64,000 nucleotides of DNA from Pseudanabaena sp. PCC 7367 (lineage in GTDB: Bacteria; Cyanobacteriota; Cyanobacteriia; Pseudanabaenales; Pseudanabaenaceae), in NCBI RefSeq assembly GCF_000317065.1, contig NC_019701.1, forward strand, positions 1,951,001 through 2,015,000, given 5' to 3'. This document shows positions 54,031 to 63,395 of the stretch, piece after piece. The stretch's first letter is position 1. Every line of letters starts with the position of its first letter. Under the pieces are notes generated by a model, which made no database searches, was not told where the DNA came from, and saw nothing but the letters and a program-made list of their open reading frames with translations. The position numbers were made by a program, and so were the translations under genes.

Positions 54031-54867
54031 GTAGACTTAAAACAATATCTAAAAAAGGGCTGAAAACAGAAATATAAACTTGGTTTTATGAAGATAAATC
54101 ATGAAATAGAATTGCCGTTTAATACTCGGATTAAGGAGGTTGAAACTAGCGATCTAACAAAAATAGGTTAAAAATAAGTTTCCTGAAAGAGATTTCAAGT
54201 TGCTGCTTTGATTTGAAAATCTAATTTAGCTAATCTAGAACGAAGGAAGGTTTAATTTATTGCTAAGCAAGGCTTGGAGCTGGTAAACAACCACCGCCAA
54301 CTTAACAGCAAAAGTTAATGCGAGCCGCACCAACGCATCCCTAAGCATCTCTAAATTTAACCCAATTACTGCTATCACAGCAAACTGATTGAAATGTCTG
54401 GAATCTCATCAGGGAAAATCTTGATCCCACTTTAGTTCTAACCACAACCCAAAATATGGCACACAAAGTGCCGATCGCCGCCGAACTATTGGTTACCCAA
54501 TTTCAACGGTTCTGATTGGGCTAGCCAAATTAACTTTTGTTAAGCAAATAAGAGGTGGATTGAGCTAGACATGAGTCCACAGGATCGATCGCAGTTTAAT
54601 CGCAAAAGCTGTAGTGAGCACTCATTGGATTATTAATTAACTTTACTAATACAAAAGATTAAAAATAATCATTTTGATTTATATTGTCAAATAGGACTGT
54701 GTAACCCTATGCTTTGTTTAAATGCAAGTCTATGCATCTTCCAACTGGATCTCTCATTTTGCTGGAGTGAGGGGGGTTATTCTCGTGGCCAAATTCACGG
54801 TTTAATCTAACCGCTTGCCTCTAGCTTTTGAATTACACAAATTTGTTTGAATCGAAGGAGAATTAAA
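54031..54867. promoter_or_regulatory. Shared upstream region of ndhF4 and ccmK2
   Basis: 837 bp between divergent CO2-uptake and carboxysome genes, with no ORF. Two TTA-N7/8-TAA elements (54530-54543 and 54637-54649) match the CmpR recognition pattern. TTGTCA (54684-54689) and TATGCT (54708-54713) with an 18-bp spacer could form a promoter for ccmK2. These are pattern matches in AT-rich DNA and may be coincidental. Confidence 0.4.
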
Positions 54868-55176
54868 ATGCCAATCGCCGTAGGAATGATCGAAACCTTG
54901 GGTTTCCCTGCCGTTGTAGAAGCCGCAGATGCCATGGTCAAGGCTGCCAGAGTAACTCTGGTGGGCTATGAAAAGATCGGTAGTGGTCGCGTTACCGTAA
55001 TTGTGCGTGGCGATGTATCTGAAGTTCAGGCTTCAGTAGCTGCTGGCGTAGAGAACGTCAAGCGGGTTAATGGTGGTCAGGTACTATCTACCCACATCAT
55101 TGCGCGTCCCCACGAGAACCTTGAGTATGTATTGCCAATGAGCTATACCGAGGAAGTCGAACAGTTCCGCACCTAG
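54868..55176 (+). CDS. ccmK2: Carboxysome shell hexamer protein CcmK2
   Basis: 102 aa BMC-domain protein forming flat hexamers of the carboxysome facets. Start set at ATG 54868, which has GAAGGAG 9-15 nt upstream; a TTG at 54847 would add seven residues not found in the family. '[54 protein letters not shown]' is diagnostic; 'KIGSG' lines the pore. Nearly identical to the next gene. It lacks the C-terminal extension of ccmK1, so it is named K2 after Synechocystis order. Confidence 0.97.
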
Positions 55177-55323: not shown

Positions 55324-55665
55324 ATGTCGATCGCCGTAGGAATGATTGAAACCTTAGGGTTCCCTGCTGTTGTAGAAGCAGCGGATGCCATGGTTAAGGC
55401 TGCCAGAGTAACTCTGGTGGGCTACGAAAAAATTGGCAGCGGTCGCGTTACCGTGATTGTGCGAGGGGATGTCTCTGAGGTGCAAGCTTCGGTTGCCGCT
55501 GGCGTAGAGAATATCAAACGCGTTAATGGTGGTCAGGTGCTATCTACTCATATCATTGCGCGTCCCCATGAAAACCTTGAGTATGTGCTGCCGATGAGCT
55601 ATACCGAGGAAGTCGAACAGTTCCGCGAGAGTGTGACTGGTCGATCGCTTCCTTCTACTCGCTAG
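55324..55665 (+). CDS. ccmK1: Carboxysome shell hexamer protein CcmK1
   Basis: 113 aa BMC-domain protein, almost identical to the preceding one over the first 100 residues (Ser for Pro2, Ile for Val in 'ENIKRV') but with a C-terminal extension '[12 protein letters not shown]', as in CcmK1 of Synechocystis. Major facet tile together with K2. 147 bp downstream of ccmK2 on the same strand. The ATG at 55324 has no strong SD. Confidence 0.96.
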
Positions 55666-60707: not shown

Positions 60708-61622
60708 ATGCACCAGCTAAAGCCCCAATCCCAACAACACCGCCAAATTCAACCGCGATCGCCAGACCATCAAAACAATAAGGCGGCGCGATTGATCGAG
60801 CAACTGGATAAATTATCCGAGAGTGCGGTTGGTCTGGTTTCTACCCGTAGTTTTCCGGCTGTGGTGGGTACCGCTGATATGATGCTCAAGGCCTCTGGGG
60901 TGCTGCTGGTGGGCTATGAAAAAATTGGCCAGGGCTATTGTACGGCAGTGGTACGAGGGCGGATTGCTGATGTGCGCATAGCAGTGCAGGCTGGGATCGA
61001 AACCGCAGAGAAGTTTGAACAGTTGGTGTCGGCAACGGTGATTCCTCGCCCCATGCCCAATCTGGAATCGGTTTTACCCTTTGGCAGCAAGATCGCCAAG
61101 CAGTTTCTACAAGATCGCCTCACCCAGCGCAGCCGACTTAGTAATATGTCGATCGGCCTGATTGAAACCCGTGGCTTCCCGGCGATGGTGGGGGCAGCGG
61201 ATGCGATGCTCAAGTCGGCGGATGTGCATTTGGGAGCCTATGAATCGATCGGGGCAGGGTTATGCACAGCAATTATTCGCGGCAATGTGGCCGATGTGGC
61301 GATCGCGATTGAAGCAGGCATGCATGAGGCTGAGCGGATCGGTGAATTAAATGCCGTAATGGTAATTCCTCGCCCCCTTGATGATCTAGAAATGACCTTG
61401 CCCACGGCGCAATATTGGCTCGAAGAAATTCCGCAGCCCGTACCGCTCAAAATTCCCTTGCAGGTTAAGAAGCAACAAAAAGAGCTGGTTGAATTGCCTG
61501 AGCTTCAGCTTCAAGAGCAAAGGGACTTAATTGAGTTACCAACCGAGTCACCGCCAGAACCAGAACTACTAGAATTGCCGGATCTTAAATGGCTGGACGA
61601 TCGCCAAGACACTGATAAATAA
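60708..61622 (+). CDS. ccmO: Carboxysome tandem-BMC shell protein CcmO
   Basis: 304 aa with two BMC domains (about 37-130 and 145-232), forming pseudohexameric trimers needed for facet assembly. Domain 1 begins '[40 protein letters not shown]' and domain 2 'MSIGLIETRGFPAMVGAADAMLKSADVHLGAYESIGAGLC'. The start ATG has GAGG upstream. The 70-residue C-terminal extension contains three spaced motifs LVELPEL (260-266), LIELPTE (274-280) and LLELPDL (287-293). 159 bp after ccmN. Confidence 0.96.
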   Translation: MHQLKPQSQQHRQIQPRSPDHQNNKAARLIEQLDKLSESAVGLVSTRSFPAVVGTADMMLKASGVLLVGYEKIGQGYCTAVVRGRIADVRIAVQAGIETAEKFEQLVSATVIPRPMPNLESVLPFGSKIAKQFLQDRLTQRSRLSNMSIGLIETRGFPAMVGAADAMLKSADVHLGAYESIGAGLCTAIIRGNVADVAIAIEAGMHEAERIGELNAVMVIPRPLDDLEMTLPTAQYWLEEIPQPVPLKIPLQVKKQQKELVELPELQLQEQRDLIELPTESPPEPELLELPDLKWLDDRQDTDK

Positions 61623-61784: not shown

Positions 61785-63068
61785 GTGACTCGAAATAGAA
61801 TTGGGCTAGCGGTTGGTAGTTTTTGCGTTGGGTTGATTACCTTAAACATCTGGGCAATCTATGCCAAACATGATGCGATCGCTGCTGAGCTTGAGGTCAT
61901 ACCGATCGATCGCCAAGTGCAGCAAGTTGCGGATTATTTGATTGGGGCAATGGATACCTCGGCGGCGGCGATCGCTAATCGGGATGTCGCTGATGTGCGG
62001 ATGACTACTTGTGTAGTGGAGGTAATCGATCGAGAGCCAAAAGAGTCAGTAATTTTCCTCTATCAAGAGCAAGCAATTTCCACCAAACTAGAACAACCCT
62101 ATCGGCAGCGTTTCTTACGCATTGCGCCCAGCAAAGATGGCAAGCAAGTAGAGTCGCGGTCTTTTCGTCCTGCTGTCAGCGATCGTTGGATTGGTCTATG
62201 TAATCGGGAGCCAGAGGCTAGACAGGTATCGCAAGCGGAACTAGGCGAGGCACTATGCAGCGTTTTCTTGAGTTTAGATGCTGAGCGCGATCAGTACGGC
62301 AATTACTATCGATACATAGGCTCCACTCCCCCTGAAGGTTGCCCAACTAATTTTCGGGGTGCGGTCAAAATCACCAATAAAATTCTGCTCACTGATGGGG
62401 AGATGGAAACCTGGGATCGCGGTTTTGATGCTTCCGGTAAGCAGGTTTGGGGCGCAGATGACAGCAGCTATAAGTTTAAAGATATCAATCCAGCCAGTCA
62501 GGATGCGCAACTGAATCAGATCGCGGCAATGTTGAGCGGTAAGTTTAATAATGCGGAACAGCAGCAAAGTGATCCAACTTTTCTGCCAGTGCGGTTCAAT
62601 AACTGTGTAGTGAATATTGAACCAGATGAACTTTTCCCCACCGGAACTCAGGTGATGGTCTTGGAGCAGGCCGCAAATTCACCAGAGCTGAAGTTTGCCA
62701 GCCAACGTGTTGCCCATTTATATCGATTACCCGCACCTGACAACAGCTTTAGAATGGTTACCTATAAGCTAGTCGATGGCGATTTTGCTGATTTTTGCGA
62801 TCGCCCTGCCTCAGGGAAAGTGCTGACTGCCACACAAATTGGCCAGCGTGAATGCCAGATCACCTATCAACAAGAAAGTGATTATTATGTTGGCACTACC
62901 CCCGACAGCGGTTGCCCCAGTCAGTTTAGGGGGTCTACCTACATCACGATCGACAGTCGGCTTAGCGATAGTCAACTTGAATTCTGGGAGCGTTGGTATG
63001 ATGGACGAAGTCGCCAAGTAGCAGGTTCAGAGTCCGGCTTTTATATCTACAAACCAGTTGAGCCTTAA
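61785..63068 (+). CDS. Exported protein with two tandem CpeT/CpcT-like domains
   Basis: 427 aa from a GTG start. A hydrophobic N-terminal segment (about 8-28, 'GLAVGSFCVGLITLNIWAIYA') acts as signal or anchor. Domain 1 (about 42-227) keeps family motifs 'SVIFLYQEQAISTKLEQPYRQRFLRI', 'YRYIGSTPPEGCPTNFRGAVKITNKILLTDGEMETWDRGFDASGKQVWGA'. Domain 2 (about 243-425) is a more divergent copy ('YYVGTTPDSGCPSQFRGSTYITIDSRLSDSQLEFWERWYDGRSRQVAG'). CpeT/CpcT lyases attach bilins to phycobiliprotein cysteines in the cytosol as single-domain proteins, so export and duplication suggest a different, possibly tetrapyrrole-binding, role. Follows ccmO by 162 bp; convergent with ndhE. Confidence 0.75.
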   Translation: MTRNRIGLAVGSFCVGLITLNIWAIYAKHDAIAAELEVIPIDRQVQQVADYLIGAMDTSAAAIANRDVADVRMTTCVVEVIDREPKESVIFLYQEQAISTKLEQPYRQRFLRIAPSKDGKQVESRSFRPAVSDRWIGLCNREPEARQVSQAELGEALCSVFLSLDAERDQYGNYYRYIGSTPPEGCPTNFRGAVKITNKILLTDGEMETWDRGFDASGKQVWGADDSSYKFKDINPASQDAQLNQIAAMLSGKFNNAEQQQSDPTFLPVRFNNCVVNIEPDELFPTGTQVMVLEQAANSPELKFASQRVAHLYRLPAPDNSFRMVTYKLVDGDFADFCDRPASGKVLTATQIGQRECQITYQQESDYYVGTTPDSGCPSQFRGSTYITIDSRLSDSQLEFWERWYDGRSRQVAGSESGFYIYKPVEP

Positions 63069-63089: not shown

Positions 63090-63395
63090 CTACCAACGCA
63101 GTAGATTAAACTGCTCCATGTCCACCGTGTCGCGGCTACGGTAGATCGACAACACGATCGCCAAGCCCACCGCAGCTTCGGCCGCCGCCACCGTAATCAC
63201 AAATACGGCAAACACCTGACCGCGAATATTGTCGGAATCAACATAGTTGGAAAATGCCATCAAATTAAGGTTGACTGCATTCAGCATCAATTCGATCGAC
63301 ATCAACACGCGCACTGCATTACGGCTGGTGATCAGGCCATAAATACCAATGCAGAAAAGAGCGGCGGCAACGATTAGGAAAGCTTCTAAACTCAT
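63090..63395 (-). CDS. ndhE: NDH-1 subunit NdhE (subunit 4L)
   Basis: 101 aa, three helices. '[48 protein letters not shown]' is the NuoK/NdhE signature with the membrane glutamates of the proton path. Last gene of an ndhA-I-G-E type operon entering from the right, 105 bp after ndhG. Its stop is 21 bp from the stop of the convergent CpeT-like gene. Confidence 0.96.

Follow-up and report, generated by a model that had tools for sequence, protein, structure and literature searches.

The gene at positions 61785-63068 of the window (the whole 64,000-nucleotide stretch of Pseudanabaena sp. PCC 7367 DNA that was analysed) was described in the initial annotation as encoding two CpeT/CpcT-like copies, the second divergent, behind a hydrophobic N-terminal anchor and in the position that follows the carboxysome operon. 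The question raised by this locus is whether such a protein is a chromophore lyase, a carboxysome accessory or a member of another group of exported proteins.

Gene and export segment

The features of the locus are as follows:
61785..63068, + strand, tandem exported CRL/CpeT-family gene (427 aa, GTG start)
61785..61898, + strand, putative export segment of residues 1 to 38, with TRNR as its basic n-region and a hydrophobic stretch from 7 to 28
61899..62492, + strand, domain 1, residues 39-236, a canonical exported-branch PF06206 barrel with Cys 76, 139, 158 and 186
62493..63065, + strand, domain 2, residues 237-427, a divergent PF06206 barrel that keeps Cys 274, 338, 357 and 377
60708..61622, + strand, ccmO-type gene with two BMC domains, the upstream neighbour across a 163-bp gap, not part of the system
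63090..63395, - strand, ndhE-type gene of the NADH-quinone oxidoreductase chain 4L family, the convergent neighbour, not part of the system

The GTG codon was the sole in-frame start located 5' of the hydrophobic segment, and the frame was closed two codons before it (locus L006). The N-terminus, IGLAVGSFCVGL, showed a 12-residue mean hydrophobicity of 2.13, which was typical of the exported group and above the values of all 10 cytosolic lyases (each below 1.6); these export calls came from a hydrophobicity and motif heuristic and not from a trained predictor. The proposed hydrophobic anchor thus appears to be correct. A signal-peptidase site is possible after AIA(33), and the segment may be either cleaved or retained as an uncleaved anchor. 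The promoter and terminator scan around the gene performed no better than on shuffled sequence.

Two PF06206 domains with lipocalin-like folds

The whole tandem protein matched Pfam PF06206 with 296 bits in two stretches. When scored alone, the first and second halves reached 161.7 and 135 bits, respectively, against a curated cut-off of 21, which bears out the presence of two copies of the family domain, the second of them divergent. The genome-wide PF06206 scan likewise reported each half as a match of its own (E 1.9e-48 and 8.8e-39). As judged from these scores and the N-terminal hydrophobicity, the protein appears neither to have a cytosolic N-terminus nor to carry a second half outside the family profile. 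The divergence of domain 2 was evident in its motifs, in which PYRQR was replaced by FASQR, DRG by ERW and VWGA by VAGS. An NCBIfam search with the tandem protein assigned no family.

The AlphaFold model contained two lipocalin-like barrels with a pLDDT of 85 for the whole protein, and the second half modelled alone gave the same barrel with a pLDDT of 90. The closest solved structure to both halves was CRL (CRUMPLED LEAF, At5g51020, from Arabidopsis; PDB 6lix/6liy). CRL ranked first for domain 1 with a Z-score of 25.1, followed by CpcT (20.5) and phage CpeT (16.8), and the same order was found for the second half (21.8, 19.5 and 16.5, respectively). Weaker matches at Z 6 to 10, a range common for barrels, included nitrobindin and the fatty-acid-binding and bile-acid-binding barrels. 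In a sequence search, CRL was the only solved structure matched by the tandem protein (E 2.6e-17) and by its second half alone (E 7e-11), whereas one of the cytosolic paralogues encoded in the genome matched CpcT (E 1.7e-31).

Four PF06206 genes were found in Pseudanabaena sp. PCC 7367 (contigs of 4.56 and 0.33 Mb), of which the gene at 61785-63068 is the sole tandem; the other three are separate and cytosolic. On the smaller replicon (C1, 328,634 bp), several phycobiliprotein-domain genes were found at 253497-282811 along with a gene for a cytosolic PF06206 lyase (L001), so that part of the antenna gene set lies off the main chromosome.

An exported branch separate from the cytosolic lyases

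In a tree of 62 rows, the 11 cytosolic PF06206 rows formed one clade with 100/100 support, apart from all exported rows, the tandem protein being among the latter. Domain 1 fell within the exported cyanobacterial clade in two trees (98/94 and 99/95). By its sequence, then, the tandem protein is placed outside the cytosolic CpcT/CpeT lyases, in a separate exported branch of PF06206. CRL joined the exported proteins of cyanobacteria with support of 100/99, and of 99/95 after removal of the divergent halves and PEP-CTERM forms, and its profile scores were 108 bits against the non-phototroph exported proteins, 101 against the cyanobacterial exported proteins and 55 against the cytosolic proteins. 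The placement of CRL in the exported branch is well supported but not settled, because an AU test that put CRL with the cytosolic lyases gave p values of 0.11 and 0.19, so that this grouping stays admissible.

The hydrophobicity cut was passed by 51 of the 56 exported cyanobacterial rows (in some cases two rows stand for one gene drawn from two sources) and 36/39 non-cyanobacterial exported rows, and by none of the 10 cytosolic rows. The exported relatives showed signal peptides of the AxA type or signals of the lipoprotein type, with frequent lipobox-like motifs. Cys 158/186 occur in exported and cytosolic proteins alike. The Cys pair 76/139 (274/338 in domain 2), on the other hand, was present in 55/55 exported cyanobacterial domains, all three PEP-CTERM forms, both full second domains and CRL, and in 0/10 cytosolic lyases; the 38 sequences from other bacteria had both residues in 4 cases, neither in 33 and a split pair in 1. 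Both types of pair occur in both domains of the tandem protein, while CRL has T and F at 158/186, so that these two positions were lost together. The joint presence or absence of each pair suggests two disulfides formed in an oxidising compartment.

Nostoc-type cyanobacteria also have exported PF06206 proteins that bear a PEP-CTERM-like tail (L026, L029 and L033). One such form, on a Nostoc plasmid (NZ_CP040298.1, 158765-159262), is annotated as chromophore lyase CpcT/CpeT. At least one exported member thus carries the database name of chromophore lyase, a function against which the present evidence argues.

Distribution of the exported branch

A single-sequence search of the genome contigs gave no match, and relatives were found once an alignment was used as the query. 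The genome-wide scan revealed about 43 loci with single-domain relatives that were 40-57% identical to domain 1, nearly all of them cyanobacterial. Relatives at 27-38% identity were found in Planctomycetota, Bacteroidota, Myxococcota, Pseudomonadota, Calditrichota, Tanganyikabacteria and others. A match was present in 48 of the 390 genomes of the cyanobacterial class sample, which indicates that the exported protein is not a core assembly factor. At E 1e-20, the exported gene was absent from all 37 further Pseudanabaenaceae genomes searched, so it was either gained in Pseudanabaena sp. PCC 7367 or lost in its relatives. Two further loci are of note: a contig labelled Candidatus Gracilibacteria (L055) carries an exported gene of the cyanobacterial type and is probably mis-binned, and Hormoscilla sp. 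GUM202 (L092) has a shortened frame of 155 residues that covers part of the domain and may represent an interrupted copy.

Nine genomes outside the oxygenic cyanobacteria that carry the exported form were tested. Each has just one PF06206 gene, none has a phycobilisome-domain gene and eight of the nine lack a PF01126 heme oxygenase; several of these genomes are possibly incomplete metagenome assemblies, which makes any single absence weak evidence but not the joint pattern. Phycobiliprotein genes and heme oxygenase are both present in Pseudanabaena sp. PCC 7367. A search of an open-access library gave no description of the exported branch.

The initial annotation considered the gene unusual. 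This holds for the tandem layout, which is the rare feature (it was seen in three genomes, in one of which the second half has decayed), and not for export, since exported members form a branch in many cyanobacteria and in phycobilin-free bacteria.

Tandem form and origin of domain 2

Two-domain forms were found in Pseudanabaena sp. PCC 7367, Oscillatoriales M59_W2019_021 (L036/L050) and genome G027 (L037), and their first domains clustered at 96/81. Domain 2 of the Oscillatoriales protein (L036) was 47% identical to that of Pseudanabaena sp. PCC 7367, and the second half of the G027 protein was nearly unrecognisable (9 bits against PF06206). Because the second domains have their replaced motifs in common yet retain all four cysteines, they look like modules that changed role under constraint rather than decayed.

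We also asked whether domain 2 arose by a recent duplication of domain 1 within the gene. Grouping domain 2 with the tandem first domains was rejected (AU p 0.006), and grouping it with the cyanobacterial exported clade was borderline (AU p 0.047); from these values domain 2 appears to be old or fast-evolving, within the limits that long branches set on the test. A pairing of domain 2 with CRL at 90/92 in the tree is not put forward as a relationship, both being long branches.

Gene neighbourhood and the carboxysome question

The position of the gene allows the reading that its product is a carboxysome accessory: ccmO lies upstream on the same strand across the 163-bp gap, and a simple scan found no terminator. 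The comparison of loci and genomes speaks strongly against it. No ccm or ndh gene was found within 7-20 kb at 14 other exported-gene loci (12 cyanobacterial, 2 non-phototroph), and the exported gene followed ccmO at 0 of the 19 ccmO loci examined in same-family relatives. The other genomes of the family, most of which have ccmO, lack the exported gene. Carboxysomes are cytoplasmic, whereas the tandem protein bears a predicted export signal. A link to the carboxysome operon, after which the initial annotation placed the gene, was therefore abandoned, and we regard a carboxysome role as scarcely credible.

The conserved neighbours of the exported gene formed lineage-specific blocks only and indicated no functional partner. 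Neighbour clusters among the non-phototrophs included antisense shadows of the exported gene itself, and no conclusion was drawn from them. As for the carboxysome genes themselves, two nearly identical ccmK-type shell genes lie in tandem at 54847-55176 and 55324-55665, and ccmO is the last ccm gene in Pseudanabaena sp. PCC 7367, while in most of the same-family relatives examined (L144-L162) ccmO is followed, at a distance of about 1 kb, by a ccmK-type gene. The window as a whole contains 74 copies of GCGATCGC, a HIP1-type palindrome, against 0.9 expected; such abundance is usual for many cyanobacteria.

Possible function of the tandem protein

CRL is the only characterised protein among those placed in the branch, and we accordingly judged a CRL-like envelope role to be the most likely one. 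The crl mutant has severe plastid replication defects, and CRL is an outer-envelope protein (PMC4686620). According to a passage of PMC12373785 citing Yoshimura 2024, CRL has the Omp85 protein Oep80 as an interaction partner, and without CRL the Oep80 complex drops from about 200 to 160 kDa. By analogy with this protein, we consider it about an even chance that the tandem protein is an extracytoplasmic member of the exported PF06206 branch, together with CRL, and serves as an accessory or adaptor in Omp85-type envelope biogenesis rather than as a bilin lyase. It would be exported by Sec and face the periplasm, the lumen or the outer membrane, and the four cysteines of each domain would form two disulfides. 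Domain 1 may have kept a conserved pocket for a hydrophobic ligand or a partner segment, and domain 2, which lost the canonical pocket motifs and kept the fold and cysteines, may offer a second, different binding site. The Omp85 link is borrowed from a single plant protein, CRL, whose direct role is termed unclear (PMC12373785).

A lipocalin-like extracytoplasmic carrier of a small hydrophobic ligand, such as a fatty acid, lipid, quinone or tetrapyrrole breakdown product, is a possible but less probable reading; it would have no Omp85 role, and its two domains would represent two specificities. The export signals, patchy distribution and motif change in domain 2 are consistent with it, as are the matches to nitrobindin and the fatty-acid- and bile-acid-binding barrels, although these matches lie in the Z range common for barrels and the ligand remains hypothetical. 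Binding or attachment of bilins outside the cytoplasm seems improbable to us. Membership in PF06206, the core motifs EQA, PYRxR, DRG and WG found in both domain 1 and CpcT, and the phycobiliproteins and heme oxygenase of Pseudanabaena sp. PCC 7367 argue for it; against this, relatives occur in genomes without phycobiliproteins and mostly without heme oxygenase, the motifs in common with CpcT are lost from domain 2, the genome already has three separate cytosolic PF06206 genes, and phycobilisomes, according to a passage of PMC10254012, lie at the cytoplasmic (stromal) surface of thylakoids. For the exported branch, phycobilin attachment is unlikely, since the nine genomes tested outside the oxygenic cyanobacteria are without phycobiliproteins and eight of them without heme oxygenase. 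Tetrapyrrole binding by the tandem protein is possible: a 2020 paper reportedly described CRL as a bilin lyase homologue retaining the bilin pocket, so that binding of a bilin or tetrapyrrole should not be dismissed. We hold it to be very doubtful that the hydrophobic segment anchors a lyase with its domains on the cytoplasmic face. The uncertain cleavage site would allow this, and PMC8836251 counts CRL among the signal-anchored proteins of the outer envelope, but the extra Cys pair runs throughout the cyanobacterial exported branch and is absent from the cytosolic one, the relatives show clear AxA-type or lipobox signals, and basic residues precede the hydrophobic segment.

We thus judged the CRL-like envelope role to be most likely, followed by a general hydrophobic-ligand carrier, with bilin attachment unlikely. 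As a more tentative extension, plant CRL may have come from a bacterial member of the exported branch and not from a phycobilin lyase; the branch would be a general accessory of envelope assembly in diderm bacteria, misnamed as chromophore lyase, and the tandem protein would consist of two modules with split roles. One survey dated the emergence of CRL to plant terrestrialization (PMC11135702), an origin that would be revised if CRL belongs among the bacterial exported proteins. A genetically simple bacterial relative would open the role of CRL at the chloroplast outer envelope to experiments in bacteria. The two-domain form offers a natural comparison between a conserved module and a diverged one.

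Comparison with known systems

Like the tandem protein, CRL has an N-terminal hydrophobic segment, a barrel and equivalents of the Cys pair 76/139, and it has the core motifs EQA, (P)FRQR, DRGFD and QVWG in common with domain 1. In contrast, CRL is a single-domain eukaryotic protein of the chloroplast outer envelope without the second Cys pair. The phycocyanobilin lyase CpcT (PDB 4o4o/4o4s) belongs to the same Pfam family, has the same fold and contains Cys 158/186 and the core motifs of domain 1; unlike the tandem protein, it is cytosolic, has a single domain without Cys 76/139 and lies in the separate branch supported at 100/100. The CpeT of cyanophage P-HM1 (PDB 5hi8) also adopts the same fold, but its 136 residues form a single domain without an export segment.

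The single-domain relatives include the exported proteins of Gloeocapsopsis (L060), Calothrix (L062) and Planktothrix (L079), which were 40-57% identical to domain 1 and had a predicted signal or lipoprotein peptide and the four cysteines, although the second domain was missing. The tandem proteins of M59_W2019_021 and G027 had the same exported two-domain layout as the Pseudanabaena sp. PCC 7367 protein, while their gene neighbourhoods differed from its locus.
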